The notes under the pieces: generated by a model
Seen by the model: the letters and a program-made list of their open reading frames with translations, nothing else
The model's database searches: none
Told to the model about the DNA's origin: nothing
Part shown: positions 16,329 to 47,098 of the stretch, piece by piece
How the letters are laid out: the number at the start of each line of letters is the position of its first letter
How positions within the stretch are numbered: position 1 is the stretch's first letter
From: Azoarcus sp.
Lineage (GTDB): Bacteria > Pseudomonadota > Gammaproteobacteria > Burkholderiales > Rhodocyclaceae
Direction of reading: 5' to 3'
NCBI GenBank assembly: GCA_031258965.1
Contig: JAIRMC010000062.1
Location: forward strand, 1-52,374
DNA: 52,374 nucleotides
Translations under genes and position numbers: made by a program

Positions 16329-16966
16329 GCGCATCCATCAAGACACTCGTCAAAGATGGCGTCTGGGATAACAACGTCGTCTTTACGCAAATGATCGGAC
16401 TTTGTCCTGCGGCGGCCGTCACGACCAGCGGCACGAACGGACTGGGCATGGGGTTGGCCACCACGGCGGTGCTGGTCATCGCAAACGTTCTCGTCGCGCT
16501 GGTTCGCAACATCATCAGCCCGCAGGTGCGGATACCCGTTTTTGTCGTCCTGATCGCCAGTCTCGTCACCGTGGTGGACATGCTGCTCAACGCCTGGCTG
16601 CACGAACTCTACAAAGTGTTGGGCCTGTTCATCGCCTTGATCGTGGTCAACTGCGCGATTCTCGGACGGGTAGAAGCCTTCGCCTCGAAAAACGGCGTCT
16701 GGCCCGCGTTCGTGGACGGCCTGGCGATGGGTTTCGGGTTTACCGTCGCCCTGACCCTGATCGGACTGATCCGGGAATTTCTCGGCAGTGGCACCCTCTT
16801 TGCGCAAGCCTCGCAGCTTCTGGGCGCGAGCTTCGCCTTTCTGGAAATCCGTGCGCACGAAAACGGCGGGGCGCTCCTCATGATCCTGCCCCCCGGCGCG
16901 TTTGCCGTGCTCGGGTTTCTGCTGGCGGGCAAACGTCTGCTGGATACACGGAAAAACGCCGCCTGA
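16325..16966 (+). CDS. rnfE: Rnf electron transport complex subunit RnfE
   Basis: A 213-residue six-helix membrane subunit, paralogue of RnfA. It has DNNVVFTQMIGLCPAAAVT and LIVVNCAILGR, whose cysteines match those of RnfA across the pseudo-twofold axis. The start overlaps the rnfG stop by four bases. The last helix ends in a basic tail facing the cytoplasm. Confidence 0.95.
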   Translation: MSASIKTLVKDGVWDNNVVFTQMIGLCPAAAVTTSGTNGLGMGLATTAVLVIANVLVALVRNIISPQVRIPVFVVLIASLVTVVDMLLNAWLHELYKVLGLFIALIVVNCAILGRVEAFASKNGVWPAFVDGLAMGFGFTVALTLIGLIREFLGSGTLFAQASQLLGASFAFLEIRAHENGGALLMILPPGAFAVLGFLLAGKRLLDTRKNAA

Positions 16967-39915: not shown

Positions 39916-40000
39916 GGTGGGTTGGCAGAGAGGTCGATTGCACTGGTCTTGAAAACCAGCAACGGGTAACCGTTCCAGGGTTCGAATCCCTGACCCACCG
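39916..40000 (+). tRNA. tRNA-Ser (UGA anticodon)
   Basis: Acceptor GGTGGGT / ACCCACC pairs perfectly. The anticodon stem CTGGT/ACCAG encloses loop CTTGAAA with anticodon TGA. A long variable arm (AACGG/CCGTT) marks tRNA-Ser, and the T arm is CAGGG/CCCTG with TTCGAA. Position 73 is G and CCA is not encoded. Confidence 0.95.
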
Positions 40001-40002
40001 CC

Positions 40003-40191
40003 GCCGACAGCGGACTGGCGGCGCATGCGTGGGGCGGCATCACCTACAGCGCGACGAGCGTGCCGGAGCCGGAAATGTGGGCGATGCTGCTGGCGGGGCT
40101 GGGCGTGATGGGTGCACCCGCCCGGCGGCGCACCCGCAAAACCGGATGGCTTCAGGCATGTCTGATCCCTGAACAGCCGCCCGGTTACTGA
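40003..40191 (+). pseudogene. C-terminal remnant of a PEP-CTERM protein
   Basis: Directly after the tRNA a frame reads GGITYSATS, then the sorting signal VPEPE, a hydrophobic stretch WAMLLAGLGVMG and an Arg-rich end ARRRTRK, ending at TGA. This is a PEP-CTERM domain, which targets proteins to an exosortase-type export and anchoring system. No start codon or upstream domain exists: the frame runs back into the tRNA. The rest of the gene is lost or lies elsewhere. Confidence 0.8.
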
Positions 40192-40470
40192 CGCATCTGC
40201 ACCAGATCCTCCCCGCGCAATCCAGTGGTTTTGAGCACGATCTCAAAATCGACACCACAAGCCAGCATCGCCCGGGCAATTTCCAGGGATGCGCTACGGC
40301 GTCCCCCCTCAAGTCCTTCCGAGCGGCCTTGTTCCAGCTCCTTTCCCAGCCCGATCCGTTCTAGTTCTTCGGCTATGGTCATGGTTCCCTCCTCGTAATC
40401 CGGCAAGCGGCGCGCCAGTTGTTCGACGAAGTCTCGCGGCCTGCCCGTGTTGCCTGCTTGCAGTTTTTCC
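40185..40470 (-). pseudogene. Rpn/PD-(D/E)XK nuclease-family C-terminal remnant
   Basis: The minus strand reads GRPRDFVEQLARRLPDYEE, then MTIAEELERIGL and a Glu/Gly/Arg-rich coil, ending in the segment TGLRGEDLVQMRQ. This is how recombination-promoting nuclease/transposase (Rpn, DUF4351-like) proteins end. The nuclease domain itself is absent, so it is a fragment. Its stop overlaps that of the PEP-CTERM remnant, end to end. The upstream sequence to about 40730 has several weak frames that I cannot name. Confidence 0.5.
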
Positions 40471-40619
40471 TGTCCAGATGGGCGCGCATTGCGGCGGCGC
40501 GCGCTAACTTGCCCGTATACGTGAGCAGGTATACACTTCGGACGCTCCGGGGCGGGTTGGGAGCGCTGGCCTTTTTGCGGTGCGTTCGAGGTTTTCCCCC
40601 TTCCGGCTTACCTGATTCC

Positions 40620-40654
40620 AACAGGCCGCACAGTTTGTGTGGCCTGTTTTCTTT
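40620..40654 (+). terminator. strong hairpin with T-rich tail upstream of ccoI
   Basis: AACAGGCCGCACA pairs with TGTGTGGCCTGTT over a GTT loop (13 pairs, one G-U), followed by TTCTTT. It looks like a Rho-independent terminator left by the broken region, or insulation of ccoI. Confidence 0.65.
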
Positions 40655-40702
40655 GGCGCGTCCAATGTTCGTCGCTGCCAGTTCCGAATGCGTGTCCAGG
40701 CC

Positions 40703-43180
40703 ATGAGTCCGAATTCCCCGCTTTCCACGGCATCCACCGCTACCGAACCAGCCTGTTACCACTGCGGTTTGCCGGTGCCGTCGGGGACGGATTACCGGGT
40801 GGTCGTGGAAGGGGTGGAGCGCCGCATGTGCTGCGCGGGTTGCGAGGCAGTGGCGCAGGCAATCGTCGGCAATGGCTTGTCCGGCTATTATCGCCACCGC
40901 GACGCCATGCCCGAAAAACGCGCCGAGGCGATGCCGGATGAGTTGCGCGACCTGGGGCTTTTCGATCATCCCGAGTTCCAGCAGGGTTTCGTGCGCCCGG
41001 TGGGCGAGCATGAGCGCGAGGCTTCGCTGATCCTCGAAGGCATTACCTGCGCCGCTTGCGTGTGGCTCAATGAACAGCATGTTGCCCGCCAGCCGGGGGT
41101 TTCGGCGGTGCAGATCAATTACGCCACCCGGCGCGCCCGCGTGCGATGGGATGAGCGCCAGATCAAGCTCTCCGGCATTCTGGCGGCGATCCAGGCCATT
41201 GGCTATCGCGCTTATCCTTACGATGCCGCGCGCGCCGAGCAGGTGGCCGACCGCGAGCGGCGTTCGATGTTGTGGCGGGTCTTCGTCGCCGGTTTCGGCA
41301 TGATGCAGGTGATGATGTACGCCTTCCCGGCCTACATGGCGGGCGATGGCGACATGACCGCGGATATGGAACTCCTGCTGCGCTGGGCGAGTTTGATCCT
41401 GACCCTGCCGGTAGTGCTGTATTCGGCGGCGCCGTTTTTCCAGCGCGCTTGGCGCGACATCCGCCTGCGCCGCCTGGGGATGGATGTGCCGGTCGCGCTC
41501 GGCGTCGGCAGCGCGTTCCTGGCGAGCCTGTGGGCGACTCTGACGCATGGGCCGGTGGTTTATTTCGATTCGGTGACGATGTTCGTGTTTTTCCTGCTTG
41601 GCGGGCGCTATCTTGAAATGCTGGCGCGGCAGCGGGCGGTGCGCGGCATCGAGGAGTTGGGCAAAGTGTTGCCCGCGTTCAGCGAACGCCTGCCGGACTG
41701 GCCGCGCCCCGGCAGCGAGCGTGTGCCGGTGTCGCAACTCGCGCCGGGAGATCATGTGCGGGTACGTCCGGGAGAGGTGGCGCCGGTCGATGGGGTCGTG
41801 GTCGAAGGCGTGAGCGAGGCCAATGAGGCGCTGCTGACAGGTGAGAGCCGCCCCGTGCCCAAGGCGGCGGGCGCGCCGCTCACTGGCGGCAGCATCAATG
41901 TTTCCAGTCCGCTCGTGCTGCGGGTCGAGCAGGTGGGCGACGGCACACGGTTGGCGGCGATCCGCCGCCTAATGGAGCGGGCCGCGAGCGAGAAGCCGCG
42001 ACTGGCGACGCTTTCCGACCGGCTAGCGGCGCGTTTCGTCGTGGCCTTGCTGGCGCTGGCGACAGTGGCCGGGGTTGCGTGGTATTTCGTCGAACCGTCG
42101 CGGGCCTTGTGGGTGTTCGTGTCGGTGCTGGTGGTGGCCTGCCCTTGCGCCCTGTCCCTGGCGACGCCGACCGCGCTCACGGTGGCGACCGACGCGTTGG
42201 CGCGCATGGGGGTGCTAGTGACGCGCGGGTACGCGATAGAAACGCTGGCGCGCGTCAATCATTATGTGTTCGACAAGACCGGCACGCTGACCATGGGGCG
42301 GATGACAGTGGAAGAAGTGCTTCCGCTCGGCGGGATGGACGCCGATGCGCTGTGTGCGCTCGGCGCGGCGCTGGAGCAGGGATCGGAGCATCCGGTCGCG
42401 CTTGGTTTGCGCGCGGCGGCGGACGGCAAGCCGCCGGTCGCGGTCAGCGGCGTGCTTGCGGAAACCGGACAGGGGATGTCCGGGCGCTACGATGCCGGGG
42501 CGGTGTGGATCGGCCGCCCGGATTTCGTCGCCGCGCGGTTGGGGCAGCCATTGCCCGCCGAGACTGCCGCGCTGGAGGCAAAAGCGGGCACAGTGGTGGC
42601 CCTGGCCGATGAACGGAGCTGGCTCGGGCTGTTCCGCTTGGCCGATACCTTGCGTCCGGCGGCGACCGATCTAATCTGCCAGCTTGACGCGGCGGGAATT
42701 CCGGCGACGATCCTGTCGGGTGATGCGCCGGCGGCGGCGGCGGCGGCGGGGCGCGAGCTGGGTATCGCCGATGCGCGCGGTGGCATGACGCCGCAGGACA
42801 AATTGACGTTCATCACGGGCTTGCAAAACGATCCGGCCAAGGTGGTGGCGATGGTCGGCGACGGGGTAAACGACGCGCCGGTGTTGGCGCAGGCACATGT
42901 CTCGGTGGCAGTGGGCAGCGGCACCGACCTCGCGCGCAACCAGGCCGACATCGTGCTGCTTGGCGAAGACCTCGCCCGGCTTGCCGAAGGGGCCGGGGTG
43001 GCGCGCAAGACATTGCGCATCATCCGGCAGAATTTGTGGTGGTCGTTCGCATACAATTTTTCCGCCGTGCCGTTGGCGATGACCGGCTGGGTGACGCCCC
43101 TGATGGCAGGCGTCGGCATGGCCGGCAGTTCGCTGTTGGTTGTTCTCAATGCGTTGCGCTTGCAGCGCCGCCGGGAGTGA
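40703..43180 (+). CDS. ccoI: cbb3-oxidase copper P1B-ATPase CcoI
   Basis: An 825-residue copper-exporting P-type ATPase that loads Cu for the cbb3 oxidase. The N-terminus has the FixI/CcoI-type cysteines CYHCG and CCAGC, then an HMA domain with C116-AA-C119. The transmembrane CPC motif is C480-P-C482, phosphorylation D524 is in DKTGTLT, and the hinge is GDGVNDAP. ccoS follows directly. The ribosome site is weak. The gene carries no visible FNR box of its own. Confidence 0.94.
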   Translation: MSPNSPLSTASTATEPACYHCGLPVPSGTDYRVVVEGVERRMCCAGCEAVAQAIVGNGLSGYYRHRDAMPEKRAEAMPDELRDLGLFDHPEFQQGFVRPVGEHEREASLILEGITCAACVWLNEQHVARQPGVSAVQINYATRRARVRWDERQIKLSGILAAIQAIGYRAYPYDAARAEQVADRERRSMLWRVFVAGFGMMQVMMYAFPAYMAGDGDMTADMELLLRWASLILTLPVVLYSAAPFFQRAWRDIRLRRLGMDVPVALGVGSAFLASLWATLTHGPVVYFDSVTMFVFFLLGGRYLEMLARQRAVRGIEELGKVLPAFSERLPDWPRPGSERVPVSQLAPGDHVRVRPGEVAPVDGVVVEGVSEANEALLTGESRPVPKAAGAPLTGGSINVSSPLVLRVEQVGDGTRLAAIRRLMERAASEKPRLATLSDRLAARFVVALLALATVAGVAWYFVEPSRALWVFVSVLVVACPCALSLATPTALTVATDALARMGVLVTRGYAIETLARVNHYVFDKTGTLTMGRMTVEEVLPLGGMDADALCALGAALEQGSEHPVALGLRAAADGKPPVAVSGVLAETGQGMSGRYDAGAVWIGRPDFVAARLGQPLPAETAALEAKAGTVVALADERSWLGLFRLADTLRPAATDLICQLDAAGIPATILSGDAPAAAAAAGRELGIADARGGMTPQDKLTFITGLQNDPAKVVAMVGDGVNDAPVLAQAHVSVAVGSGTDLARNQADIVLLGEDLARLAEGAGVARKTLRIIRQNLWWSFAYNFSAVPLAMTGWVTPLMAGVGMAGSSLLVVLNALRLQRRRE

Positions 43181-43187
43181 GCCAGGA

Positions 43188-43385
43188 ATGGAAAGTCTTT
43201 ATTTGTTGATTCCGCTCTCGATTGTGCTGGTTTTTATAATCGGCGCGCTGTTTTGGTGGTCGTTGCGCACTGGGCAGTACGACGATCTCGAAGGCCCGGC
43301 ATATCGGATTCTGCTTGACGACCGGGACGAATTCCGGCAAGAGGGAAAGGGGGGCGAGGCAACGCCAGAGGCCGAACAAAATTGA
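43188..43385 (+). CDS. ccoS: cbb3 oxidase maturation protein CcoS
   Basis: A 65-residue single-pass membrane protein needed for cofactor insertion in cbb3 oxidase. A helix (about 4-25) is followed by the family motif WWSLRTGQYDDLEGPAYRIL. It begins eight bases after the ccoI stop, with AGGA at the start. Confidence 0.92.
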   Translation: MESLYLLIPLSIVLVFIIGALFWWSLRTGQYDDLEGPAYRILLDDRDEFRQEGKGGEATPEAEQN

Positions 43386-43421
43386 TTCGCAACGAAACTT
43401 GTTCGTGAATTGTCGGCAACT

Positions 43422-43435
43422 TTGATCCAGGTCAA
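43422..43435. promoter_or_regulatory. FNR/ANR box of the candidate small RNA
   Basis: TTGAT-CCAG-GTCAA matches TTGAT-N4-ATCAA at nine of ten positions. Its centre (43428.5) is 41.5 bases before a start at about 43470, the class II spacing, with CATACT as a -10 element at 43457-43462. Confidence 0.75.
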
Positions 43436-43469
43436 TGGAATACAACGAAAACGCGGCATACTAGCCCCA

Positions 43470-43573
43470 GTTTTGCGCGGTGGCCGGAGTCGAGGGAGAA
43501 ACGCTCGGTTGCCGTGAGGGTTTGATGTCTCTCTGTTGGGGTTGGGGGTGCGTGCCATGCGCACCCTTTTTTT
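43470..43573 (+). ncRNA. candidate FNR-controlled small RNA
   Basis: A complete transcription unit without a gene: FNR box and -10 element, about 104 bases, and a strong terminator. The transcript can form a 9-pair hairpin (43478-43486 with 43506-43514), an exposed purine-rich loop with GAGGGAGAAA, a G/U-rich single-stranded stretch and the terminator hairpin. Size and control resemble the anaerobic sRNA class of E. coli FnrS, but the sequence does not look alike to me. A mini-frame from 43526 is Cys/Trp-rich and runs through the terminator; a leader-peptide role is the alternative. Confidence 0.45.
43546..43573 (+). terminator. Rho-independent terminator between ccoS and ccoN
   Basis: GGGTGCG / CGCACCC with a 7-base loop, followed at once by T7. 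Confidence 0.85.
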
Positions 43574-43610
43574 GTTTACGTTTTGCCCCAAAGTGCGTGA
43601 TGTATTGTCG

Positions 43611-43642
43611 AAATGGATTTGTGCACTGCCGCAAATCCATTT
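43611..43642. repeat. 11-bp inverted repeat upstream of ccoN
   Basis: AAATGGATTTG and CAAATCCATTT, perfect arms around a 10-base loop, between the terminator and the ccoN FNR box. Confidence 0.75.
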
Positions 43643-43733
43643 GTGCGCCGCCGCATTTTATTTTTTATCGTGTTGTCGCAAATTGACGGGGTTTCGCTGG
43701 CTCGCGGACTGCAATACAATTCACAACCGCAAC

Positions 43734-43747
43734 TTGATCTGTATCAA
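43734..43747. promoter_or_regulatory. FNR/ANR box of the ccoNOQP operon
   Basis: TTGAT-CTGT-ATCAA, a perfect consensus. Its centre is 41.5 bases before a start near 43782; a -10-like TATCCT lies at 43769-43774. ccoN starts 77 bases later. This fits low-oxygen induction of cbb3 oxidase. Confidence 0.9.
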
Positions 43748-43858
43748 ATTGTATATCCCGCCCAAAGGTATCCTTCGCCCGACGGCAACGGTGGGGTTTC
43801 TCACGGTTGTTGGCGTTGTGGTGTCGAGAGGGGTTTTGTCAACTAAGAGGTGACTCAT

Positions 43859-45283
43859 ATGCAATCGCAAGCGACTTATAACTACAAAGTCGTGCGTCAG
43901 TTCGCCATCATGACGGTGGTGTGGGGCATAGTGGGCATGCTTGTCGGCGTGATCGTCGCGGCACAGCTCGTATGGCCCGATCTGAACGTACTGGAATACC
44001 TGCATTTCGGCAGGTTGCGTCCGTTACACACAAACGCGGTAATCTTCGCGTTCGGCGGTTGCGCCTTGTTCGCAACATCCTTCTATGTCGTACAGCGAAC
44101 CTGTCATACCAGGCTGTTCGCGCCGGGGCTGGCTTCCTTCGTCTTCTGGGGCTGGCAACTCATCATCGTCGCGGCGGCTCTCACCCTTCCCCTCGGTATC
44201 ACCACAGGCAAGGAATACGCCGAACTCGAATGGCCGATCGACATCGCCATCGCCGTTGTCTGGGTGGCCTACGCAGTCGTGTTCTTCGGCACCATCGCCA
44301 CGCGCAAGGTCAGTCACATCTATGTGGCGAACTGGTTCTACGGCGCTTTCATCATCGCCGTGGCCCTGTTGCACATCGTCAATAGCGCGGAAATCCCGGT
44401 ATCGCTGCTCAAGTCCTACTCTGCCTACGCCGGTGTGCAGGACGCCATGGTGCAGTGGTGGTATGGCCACAACGCAGTGGGCTTCTTCCTGACCGCGGGC
44501 TTCCTGGGCATGATGTACTACTTCGTGCCCAAGCAGGCGGATCGGCCCATCTACTCGTACCGTCTGTCGGTAGTGCACTTCTGGGCGCTCATCTTCACCT
44601 ACATGTGGGCGGGGCCGCACCATCTGCATTACACCGCGCTGCCCGACTGGGCGCAGTCCGTCGGCATGCTTTTCTCGCTCATCCTGCTGGCCCCGTCCTG
44701 GGGTGGCATGATCAACGGCATCATGACGCTTTCGGGCGCGTGGCACAAACTGCGCACCGACCCGATCCTGAAGTTCATGATCACCTCGCTGTCGTTCTAC
44801 GGCATGTCGACCTTCGAGGGGCCGATGATGTCGGTGAAGAGCGTCAATGCGCTGTCTCACTACACCGACTGGACGGTCGGCCACGTGCACTCGGGCGCGC
44901 TGGGCTGGGTGGCGCTGATCTCGATCGGCGCGATCTACTTCCTGTTGCCGCGCCTGTATGGCAAGACCGAGATGTACAGCACCAAGCTGGTCAATACGCA
45001 CTTCTGGATAGCCACCGTCGGCATCGTGCTCTACATCGCCTCGATGTGGATCGCGGGCGTGATGCAAGGTCTGATGTGGCGCGCGACCAGCCCGGACGGC
45101 ACGCTCAGCTACGAGTTCGTCGAAGGCGTGAAAGCGACCTACCCGTTCTGGACCATCCGTCTGGTGGGCGGCACGCTCTTCCTCGTCGGCATGCTGGTCA
45201 TGTTCTACAACATGCTCAAGACCATCGCTGGCGCAAAAGCCTATAACGCTCCGGTGGTGGCTCCCGCTGCCGCCCACGCTTAA
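43859..45283 (+). CDS. ccoN: cbb3-type cytochrome c oxidase subunit I CcoN
   Basis: The 474-residue catalytic subunit with 12 helices carrying the low-spin haem b, haem b3 and CuB. Histidines in [30 protein letters not shown] and [11 protein letters not shown] are the expected ligands. The ATG at 43859 has GAGG eight bases upstream; a GTG three codons earlier is less likely. It reduces oxygen with high affinity, protecting nitrogenase while keeping respiration. Confidence 0.97.
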
Positions 45284-45298
45284 GTCGGAGATTCAGAC

Positions 45299-45931
45299 AT
45301 GGCTCAATCAAAACACGACGCGATTGAACGCAACGTATTCCTTATGATCGTCCTCACTCTGCTCGCAGTCAGCGTGGGGGGATTGGTGGAAATCGTTCCG
45401 CTGTTCTTTCAGACATCGACGACGACGGCGGTAGACGACAAGGGCAATGCGCTCGACGTAAAGCCCTACGACGCGCTCCGCCTCGCTGGCCGAGACATCT
45501 ACATCCGTGAAGGCTGCTACAACTGTCATTCGCAGATGATTCGTCCCTTCCGTTCCGAGACCGAGCGTTATGGTCATTACTCGGTGGCGGGCGAGTTCAT
45601 CTACGACCATCCATTCCAGTGGGGTTCAAAGCGGACAGGGCCGGATCTGGCCCGCGTCGGCGCCCGTTACACGGATGAATGGCAGCGCGTGCACCTTCTC
45701 AATCCGCGCGACGTCGTACCGGAGTCGAACATGCCGGCGTTCCCGTGGCTCGACCGCCCGCTTCAGGCGGCTGACATCGGGGCGCGCATGAAGGCGTTGC
45801 GCTTGGTCGGCGTGCCTTACACCGATAGCGAGATCGCCGATGCACCGGCGGCGGTTGTCGGCAAGACCGAACTTGACGCCGTGGTTGCCTACCTCCAGGG
45901 GTTGGGCTTGGCGCTTCGTAACGTAAGGTAA
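45299..45931 (+). CDS. ccoO: cbb3 oxidase monohaem subunit CcoO
   Basis: A 210-residue membrane-anchored cytochrome c. One N-terminal helix, then haem motif CYNCH at 73-77 in [14 protein letters not shown], with the axial methionine probably in [10 protein letters not shown]. It follows ccoN after 15 bases. Confidence 0.97.
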
Positions 45932-45948
45932 GACGGGATTGCGCCGCC

Positions 45949-46137
45949 ATGGTTGAAGTTGTCAATAACCTGAGAACCATCGTCATCGTATTGAGCCTGC
46001 TGTGCTTCGTAGCCATCTGCTATTGGGCATACAGCAAACATGCGAAGACAGGGTTCGACGAGGCGGCGCAGTTGCCTCTGGCCGATGACGATATACCGGC
46101 AAGTCCGGCTGACAAGGAAGGAATGACAAATGGCTGA
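45949..46137 (+). CDS. ccoQ: cbb3 oxidase small subunit CcoQ
   Basis: A 62-residue single-helix protein (about 8-28) with an acidic tail. CcoQ stabilises the complex and the CcoP contact. It overlaps ccoP by eight bases. Confidence 0.9.
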   Translation: MVEVVNNLRTIVIVLSLLCFVAICYWAYSKHAKTGFDEAAQLPLADDDIPASPADKEGMTNG

Positions 46138-47098
46138 CTTTATCAGCGGTTTCTGGAACTTATACGTGACGGGCCTCGTTGCTTTTGGCCTGCTGTTCTG
46201 TCTCGTCGTGTTGGTCACGAACATGACGTCGCAGGGCGCTGGAGAACCCAAATTGCAGGCGCACGTCTGGGACGAAAACCTGAGGGAATACAACAACCCG
46301 CTGCCGCGCTGGTGGTTGTACCTGTTTTGGGCGACCGTCATTTTTTCAATCTTCTATCTCTACCTGTTCCCGGGTTTCGGTTCCCGGCACAGCGATCCGG
46401 CTGATCCAGCCAAGGATCGCGGCCTGCGCGCCGAGTATGCGAAGGAAATCAGGAGCGCCAACAAGCAGTATGGCCCGATCTTCGAGAAGTATCTGGGGAC
46501 GGATCTGGCTGCCTTGTCGGCGGATCCTGCGGCGGTCGCGGCGGGCAAGCGCCTGTTCCTGACCTATTGTTCGCAGTGCCATGGTTCGGCGGCCAGGGGC
46601 GCCAAGGGCAAGAGCTACGGCTTCCCCGACCTGACCGATAGCGACTGGCTGTATGGCGGCGATCCGGCGACCATCAAGACCAGCATCGAAGGTGGCCGCG
46701 CCGGGGTGATGACAGCCTTTGGCGGCACGCTCAACAGTGAGCAGACCAGGGATGTAGCCAACTATGTGCGTTTGATCGCCGGTCTGGGTTCGGATGCGGC
46801 CCGTGCTGCTCGTGGCAGGGATGTTTTCGCCACCAACTGCACTGTCTGCCATGGGCCGGAGGGCAAGGGTGCGAGATCCATGGGCGAGGCATTCGCCGTA
46901 CTGGGCGCCCCCGATCTCACCGATGGCATATGGCTGTACAGCAACTCGGAAGAAGCCATCATCGACGGCGTTACCAGAGGCCGCAATGCTGGCCCGGACA
47001 GCGTGACCAACACCATGCCTGCTTGGAAGGATTTTCTTGGCGATGCCAAGGTACACATCCTCGCGGCGTATGTGTATAGCCTGAACAACAAGAAATAA
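46130..47098 (+). CDS. ccoP: cbb3 oxidase dihaem subunit CcoP
   Basis: A 322-residue dihaem cytochrome c. Two N-terminal helices are followed by haem motifs CSQCH (147-151) and CTVCH (237-241), each in a cytochrome-c domain. The segment YNNPLPRWW is the family mark. It ends the ccoNOQP operon before a strong terminator. Confidence 0.97.
   Translation: MADFISGFWNLYVTGLVAFGLLFCLVVLVTNMTSQGAGEPKLQAHVWDENLREYNNPLPRWWLYLFWATVIFSIFYLYLFPGFGSRHSDPADPAKDRGLRAEYAKEIRSANKQYGPIFEKYLGTDLAALSADPAAVAAGKRLFLTYCSQCHGSAARGAKGKSYGFPDLTDSDWLYGGDPATIKTSIEGGRAGVMTAFGGTLNSEQTRDVANYVRLIAGLGSDAARAARGRDVFATNCTVCHGPEGKGARSMGEAFAVLGAPDLTDGIWLYSNSEEAIIDGVTRGRNAGPDSVTNTMPAWKDFLGDAKVHILAAYVYSLNNKK

Follow-up and report, generated by a model that had tools for sequence, protein, structure and literature searches.

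A candidate FNR-activated small RNA from the cbb3 oxidase cluster of Rhodocyclales, with a DsrC-like gene among its predicted targets

Members of the Rhodocyclales make their living by alternating oxygen with other acceptors, and genera of this group, among them Thauera, Azoarcus, Aromatoleum, Dechloromonas, Accumulibacter and Zoogloea, matter for denitrification, for the breakdown of aromatic compounds and for the removal of phosphorus. The window analysed here (the whole stretch of DNA, 52,374 nucleotides, from an Azoarcus sp.) contains a cbb3 oxidase cluster, with genes identified by Pfam in the order ccoI, ccoS, ccoN, ccoO, ccoP, ccoG. The spacer between ccoS and ccoN contains an FNR box, a -10 element and an intrinsic terminator, and a second FNR box then precedes ccoN. 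What does the first of these boxes serve? The first-pass annotation of this DNA read it as the promoter of an FNR-controlled small RNA (sRNA), and the conserved box, -10, core and terminator described below support that reading. Very probably the locus is a gene for a trans-acting sRNA, activated by FNR at low oxygen, that would block the ribosome-binding sites of other genes.

Layout and predicted promoter

The features of the locus are collected in Table 1. The predicted +1 is placed near 43470 because the box is then centred at -41.5. The near-perfect box, the -10 element at class II spacing and an RNA of about 104 nt ending in seven T residues had all been claimed from the window, and the coordinates agree with each of these.

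Table 1 Features of the ccoS-ccoN spacer and its flanking genes, in window positions
Feature	Position	Strand	Basis
FNR box of the sRNA, TTGATCCAGGTCAA	43422-43435	+	one mismatch to TTGATNNNNATCAA
-10 element CATACT, class II spacing	43457-43462	+	read directly; column conservation in relatives
Predicted sRNA, about 104 nt	43470-43573	+	start placed by box and -10, end by T-run
5' hairpin with purine-rich loop	43477-43515	+	fold; sequence and length differ among relatives
Conserved, likely seed GTCTCTCTGTTGGGGTTGGGG	43527-43547	+	complementarity to the ribosome-binding sites in two gene families
Intrinsic terminator, stem plus T7	43544-43573	+	stem 43544-43568, T-run 43567-43573; pairing kept in relatives
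Perfect FNR box of ccoN, outside the sRNA	43734-43747	+	pattern scan
ccoS (FixS, PF03597), upstream neighbour	43188-43385	+	Pfam
ccoN (COX1, PF00115), downstream neighbour	43850-45283	+	listed start; an ATG at 43859 is an alternative

A pattern scan of the 52 kb found six FNR sites with at most one mismatch, compared with 0.76 expected, and the only perfect one is the box of ccoN. The terminator has the longest stem among four terminator-like sites in 851 nt (1.4 expected). As a single sequence, the sRNA does not have a special fold within the window (z -0.95), and no sigma-70-type promoter was called at it there; the proof is therefore comparative.

Two other elements of the window may be recorded here. 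A further one-mismatch FNR box, TTGATCGTGGTCAA, is found at 16637-16650, and an inverted repeat (AAATGGATTTG...CAAATCCATTT, 43611-43642) stands downstream of the sRNA terminator, ahead of the ccoN box.

For the comparison, 143 loci were assembled, of which 132 are distinct. The pattern TTGAN6TCAA is found within 180 nt before the conserved core in 129 of the 131 testable distinct loci (133 rows, less L095 and L113, which are too short upstream), the two exceptions being L078 and L102. As a background, stretches of two genomes were tiled into 7428 windows of 180 nt, of which 13 contain the pattern. Of these 129 loci, 116 have a -10 element, defined as at least four of six matches to TATAAT, at the class II offset; seven other offset ranges gave between 6 and 12 of 129. 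The sRNA locus of the window likewise has its FNR box at class II distance together with a -10. The genome itself encodes an Fnr protein that scores above the family cut-off and keeps the N-terminal cysteine cluster, and it also encodes Hfq. From this arrangement we infer that the sRNA is transcribed and that its transcription depends on FNR.

A conserved 3' core and its distribution

When 60 relatives were searched at the DNA level, the stretch shared most widely proved to be 43526-43573 and not the hairpin of the first-pass annotation. This 3' half of the sRNA (43527-43573), consisting of GUCUCUCUGUUGGGGUUGGGG and the terminator, is nearly invariant. In 25 of 26 aligned loci, GTCTCTCTGTTGGGGTTGGGG or a close variant is followed by the terminator and preceded by an FNR box; the remaining locus (L026) is a chance match within a coding gene. 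The identity of the core is partly by construction, because most loci were found by means of the core, whereas box, -10 and position are not.

Pairing in the terminator stem reaches 98.9% over 63 sequences. Double-sided changes occur in 23 cells, compared with a shuffled mean of 2.3, 22 of them at one loop-proximal pair and one at its neighbour. Judged from the DNA, the locus thus appears to encode a conserved short RNA with an intrinsic terminator.

The segment between start and core varies among relatives in both sequence and length, giving predicted sRNAs of 63-158 nt (median 97). Of 129 relatives, 126 have some 5' hairpin in their minimum-energy fold. The purine-rich loop GAGGGAGAAA, considered as a seed, is not conserved: among 25 loci it is confined to the window, apart from a partial match in the closest relative. 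For this reason the loop is not likely to be the targeting part, and the likely seed is instead the conserved 3' linker. In fold predictions the middle of this linker, UGUU, is open, and its flanks lie in a weak hairpin, in which UCUC may pair weakly with GGGG; only the middle is clearly open.

The core also allows us to weigh the suggestion that the element is a short coding gene, or the functionless 3' end of the ccoS transcript. An ATG does precede the core in the window, but it is not conserved, and since lineages differ by one G within the core (GGGGG or GGGG), any reading frame would be shifted. The element also has its own conserved box and -10. We regard this explanation, in either form, as extremely improbable.

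A covariance search of relatives, named in the first-pass annotation as a check, found this 3' half widely conserved. The covariance model, R1, matches 120 of 150 sampled genomes of the family at E<=0.01. Of these matches 114 score at least 49 bits, a count that excludes three at 34.7-39.2 bits (G337, G408, G425) and three at 21-25 bits; the remaining 30 genomes have no match. There is one match in the window's own genome. An exact-pattern scan of GTDB species genomes gave at least 118 stretches, and among the matches listed are Thauera, Azoarcus, Aromatoleum, Zoogloea, Dechloromonas, Azonexus, Accumulibacter and Uliginosibacterium. The sRNA is thus not peculiar to the window's genome but is found in many Rhodocyclales, and the named loci place the family in that group.

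Across the order, R1 matches 46 of 300 genomes at E<=0.01, and 37 of the 46 belong to other families. Among these 37, the matches in G210 (69 bits) and G230 (66 bits) lie beside ccoI, ccoS and ccoN. Of the other 35, 19 were inspected (L172-L190, at most 36.6 bits), and none has a cco gene within 1.5 kb. Six such weak matches (L175, L176, L179, L185, L187 and L188) fall on terminators that, by eye, stand just after a gene with an AmtB-like end, and a pyrimidine-rich stretch precedes the stem in all six.

Relation to ccoN

Is the element then simply part of the ccoN transcript? It could be a cis-acting leader or attenuator of ccoNOQP, in which the terminator ends transcription begun at the upstream FNR promoter and ccoN is served by regulated read-through. 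The position is compatible with this, ccoN being found within 900 nt downstream in 112 of the 132 distinct loci. ccoS is found within 700 nt upstream in 124 of the 132 (five lack it there and three are too short). However, a second box stands before ccoN in 108 of the 112 loci, as does the perfect box in the window; the four in which it is missing (L007, L078, L085, L115) fit the leader better.

The remaining 20 loci are of three kinds: five end too early, four have ccoN 1.8-2.4 kb away, and 11 have no ccoN in the 1.5-7.5 kb that were read. The RNA is thus kept in 15 of the 132 loci although ccoN is not adjacent, and it is unlikely to act as a ccoN leader there. In 11 of these 15 non-adjacent loci examined, TTGAN6TCAA is absent from the next 1.5 kb, and in those 11 the sRNA's own box is still present. 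In two Zoogloea loci (L093, L110), and likewise in L130 and L136, rlmN occupies the place of ccoN (L110 was checked, the others were assigned by eye).

Family genomes that have no R1 match bear on the same question. CcoN is present in 15 of the 20 that were searched among these 30, and six RNA-less relatives (L202, L204, L206, L208, L211, L213) have a ccoS-ccoN spacer with a single FNR box, which shows ccoN with one box and speaks against a leader. G368, RNA-less by R1, retains the box and the terminator without the seed.

The complementarity of the linker to the start regions of other genes, described below, also argues against the leader, which we consider improbable. On the sequence comparisons, the sRNA is separable from ccoN and is not simply its leader, in line with the first-pass annotation, which had set it apart from ccoN on the strength of the latter's own perfect box.

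As a separate observation, five loci (L103, L112, L127, L133, L054) have a gene with an Fnr-like N-terminus downstream, at the usual place of ccoN; these calls were made by eye, with L112 checked. In L112 and L127 an Rrf2-type gene precedes it.

Predicted targets and proposed function

Candidate targets were sought in the 60 relatives with the reverse complement of the seed, allowing at most one mismatch, and the surroundings of 20 of the 21 in-family matches outside the sRNA gene were read. Two gene families recurred. In two genera a DsrC-family gene (PF04358, TIGR03342) has a site 7 nt upstream of its start codon, and in five genomes of the window's genus the gene of one and the same small protein has a site 5 nt upstream of its start codon. 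The other in-family matches are in front of single genes or inside genes. Other sites judged by eye to be unproven or chance are a hemerythrin-like gene (G029) and sucA-like genes of one genus (G399, G441); an M23 peptidase gene (G017), genes like proA, ftsH and MOSC, a phage protein gene and some sites inside genes were judged likewise.

The DsrC set comprises 24 orthologues with at least 61% identity from 13 genera. Their mean duplex energy with the sRNA is -31.7 (range -15.3 to -42.1), compared with -16.3 (sd 2.1) for shuffled seeds (z -7.3). The site in G385 matches the seed perfectly over 20 nt, and in G430, G378 and G458 C-to-U and A-to-G changes keep the pairing through G-U pairs. Six DsrC paralogues with about 50% identity score like shuffled seeds. 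The sRNA is present in 22 of the 24 genomes, and for 20 of these 22 sites no more than 6 of 1000 shuffled seeds do as well; the other two sRNA-bearing genomes, G102 and G342, have poor sites (equalled by 21 and 561 of 1000). The two genomes without the sRNA score -21.0 (G336, 1 of 1000) and -23.4 (G377, 37 of 1000), and the G336 score means that an above-chance site can exist without the sRNA. In G385 the best of 641 sampled starts reaches -28.4 and dsrC itself -42.1, a value compared with the sample and not ranked within it, dsrC being missing from the sampled starts probably because in the rough ORF calling long antisense ORFs shadow short genes. In the locus mapped in this genome (L262), the dsrC-like gene stands between a gene for GTP cyclohydrolase I, upstream, and a thioredoxin gene, downstream.

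The second candidate is a protein of 88-93 residues present in 18 of 21 genomes of the window's genus, with no Pfam or NCBIfam family above cut-off. The mean duplex energy of the 18 orthologues is -27.7, compared with -17.6 for shuffled seeds (z -7.0). Twelve of the 18 sites beat all 300 shuffled seeds and 15 have p<0.05, the exceptions being two weak sites (0.06 and 0.09) and G006, which has no site. In the window's own genome two of 529 sampled starts outscore its -27.3 (z -2.9).

Four other segments of both target genes gave z values of -0.8 to +3.2, so the signal is found only at the start codon. Conserved pairing with the mRNAs of other loci is thus predicted by computation. It does not extend to a general motif: the strict pattern of CCCAACAGAGA, 3-10 nt and ATG shows no family-wide enrichment, with 22 matches in 199 genomes, eight of them the sRNA gene, leaving 14 against 15 for the permuted control. 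Not every genus is covered by these two target families. DsrC-family proteins are found in 38 of 150 family genomes at E<=1e-15, and the target orthologue in only 24, so DsrC cannot explain the conservation of the seed elsewhere; further targets beyond the two families are probable.

The same pairing is relevant to the idea that the RNA is a sponge for Hfq or a CsrA-like protein, its complementarity to targets being incidental. The core is rich in G and U, and the 5' loop of the window's species could resemble a CsrA site. That loop, however, is not conserved, and the start-codon pairing greatly exceeds that of shuffled seeds and survives base changes by means of G-U pairs; a sponge is very improbable.

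We hypothesise that, at low oxygen, FNR activates the trans-acting sRNA gene, and that the RNA, with a terminator and U-tail of the Hfq-binding kind at its 3' end, probably depends on Hfq. Its pairing region would then meet ribosome-binding sites reading like CCCCAACCCCAACAGAGAGA and block translation. Repression would fall on the DsrC-like sulfur-relay gene in at least 13 of the 68 sampled genera (a thioredoxin gene comes after it in the single locus mapped) and, within the genus of the window, on the uncharacterised small protein. From its position between ccoS and ccoN, the sRNA would respond to the same signal that turns on the high-affinity oxidase. On balance we favour the broader view that this is a Rhodocyclales-wide anaerobic sRNA regulon, run from the cbb3 cluster and shutting off DsrC-type sulfur relay and other proteins.

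If the DsrC-like link is true, it ties oxygen sensing to sulfur relay: the FNR signal that raises the high-affinity oxidase would also make an RNA that silences dsrC (with the thioredoxin gene behind it in G385), and this would be the first known sRNA control of a DsrC-family gene, as far as our search of the open-licence literature tells. Since the sRNA is conserved, sits at a fixed address, has a promoter that can be read and comes with named candidate targets, the regulon is directly testable in culturable strains.

The first-pass annotation considered the locus undescribed, and our searches bear this out. In the open-licence literature searched we found no description of this sRNA, no sRNA for the Rhodocyclales oxygen switch, and nothing joining DsrC, sRNA and Hfq. 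The FnrS family is included in Rfam. No Rfam 15 family scores above its gathering threshold at the element or at the loci of eight relatives, one tRNA being the only such match in 63260 bases. In window positions 40000-47000 there are four matches up to E 5, all to other families and below cut-off, with no FnrS. SorY (22.4 of 111 bits) and SprD (24.8 of 100), on or beside the element, are below cut-off and regarded as chance.

The design has a parallel in S17/RF02278, a toxic sRNA of Betaproteobacteria. This is an Hfq-dependent RNA of many Betaproteobacteria with a conserved seed beside an intrinsic terminator, whose sites lie at ribosome-binding sites, and a 27-nt conserved region is reported in Aromatoleum and Ca. 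Desulfobacillus (PMC11722255). The window sRNA shares the placement of the seed next to the terminator, but identity is ruled out by a different locus and sequence, and there is no RF02278 match at the locus. The window's own genome has an RF02278 copy on another contig (G000:C114:8706-8770, L152, 60.6 bits), a second conserved sRNA of this genome, and the copy in G030 is likewise elsewhere than the sRNA locus.

Neisseria AniS and FnrS are, like the present RNA, betaproteobacterial, and they are described as made under oxygen limitation, with targets termed elusive (PMC5362039). They are set apart here by the lack of an above-cut-off Rfam match at the locus. A functional parallel is FnrS of Escherichia coli, which has an FNR box at -42.5 and is directly activated by FNR (PMC3688515). 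It is FNR-activated from near the class II position and lowers its targets without oxygen, a behaviour that we infer for the window sRNA. The seed, genomic place and predicted targets differ between the two, but the window sRNA is proposed to work likewise, by repressing translation in trans.
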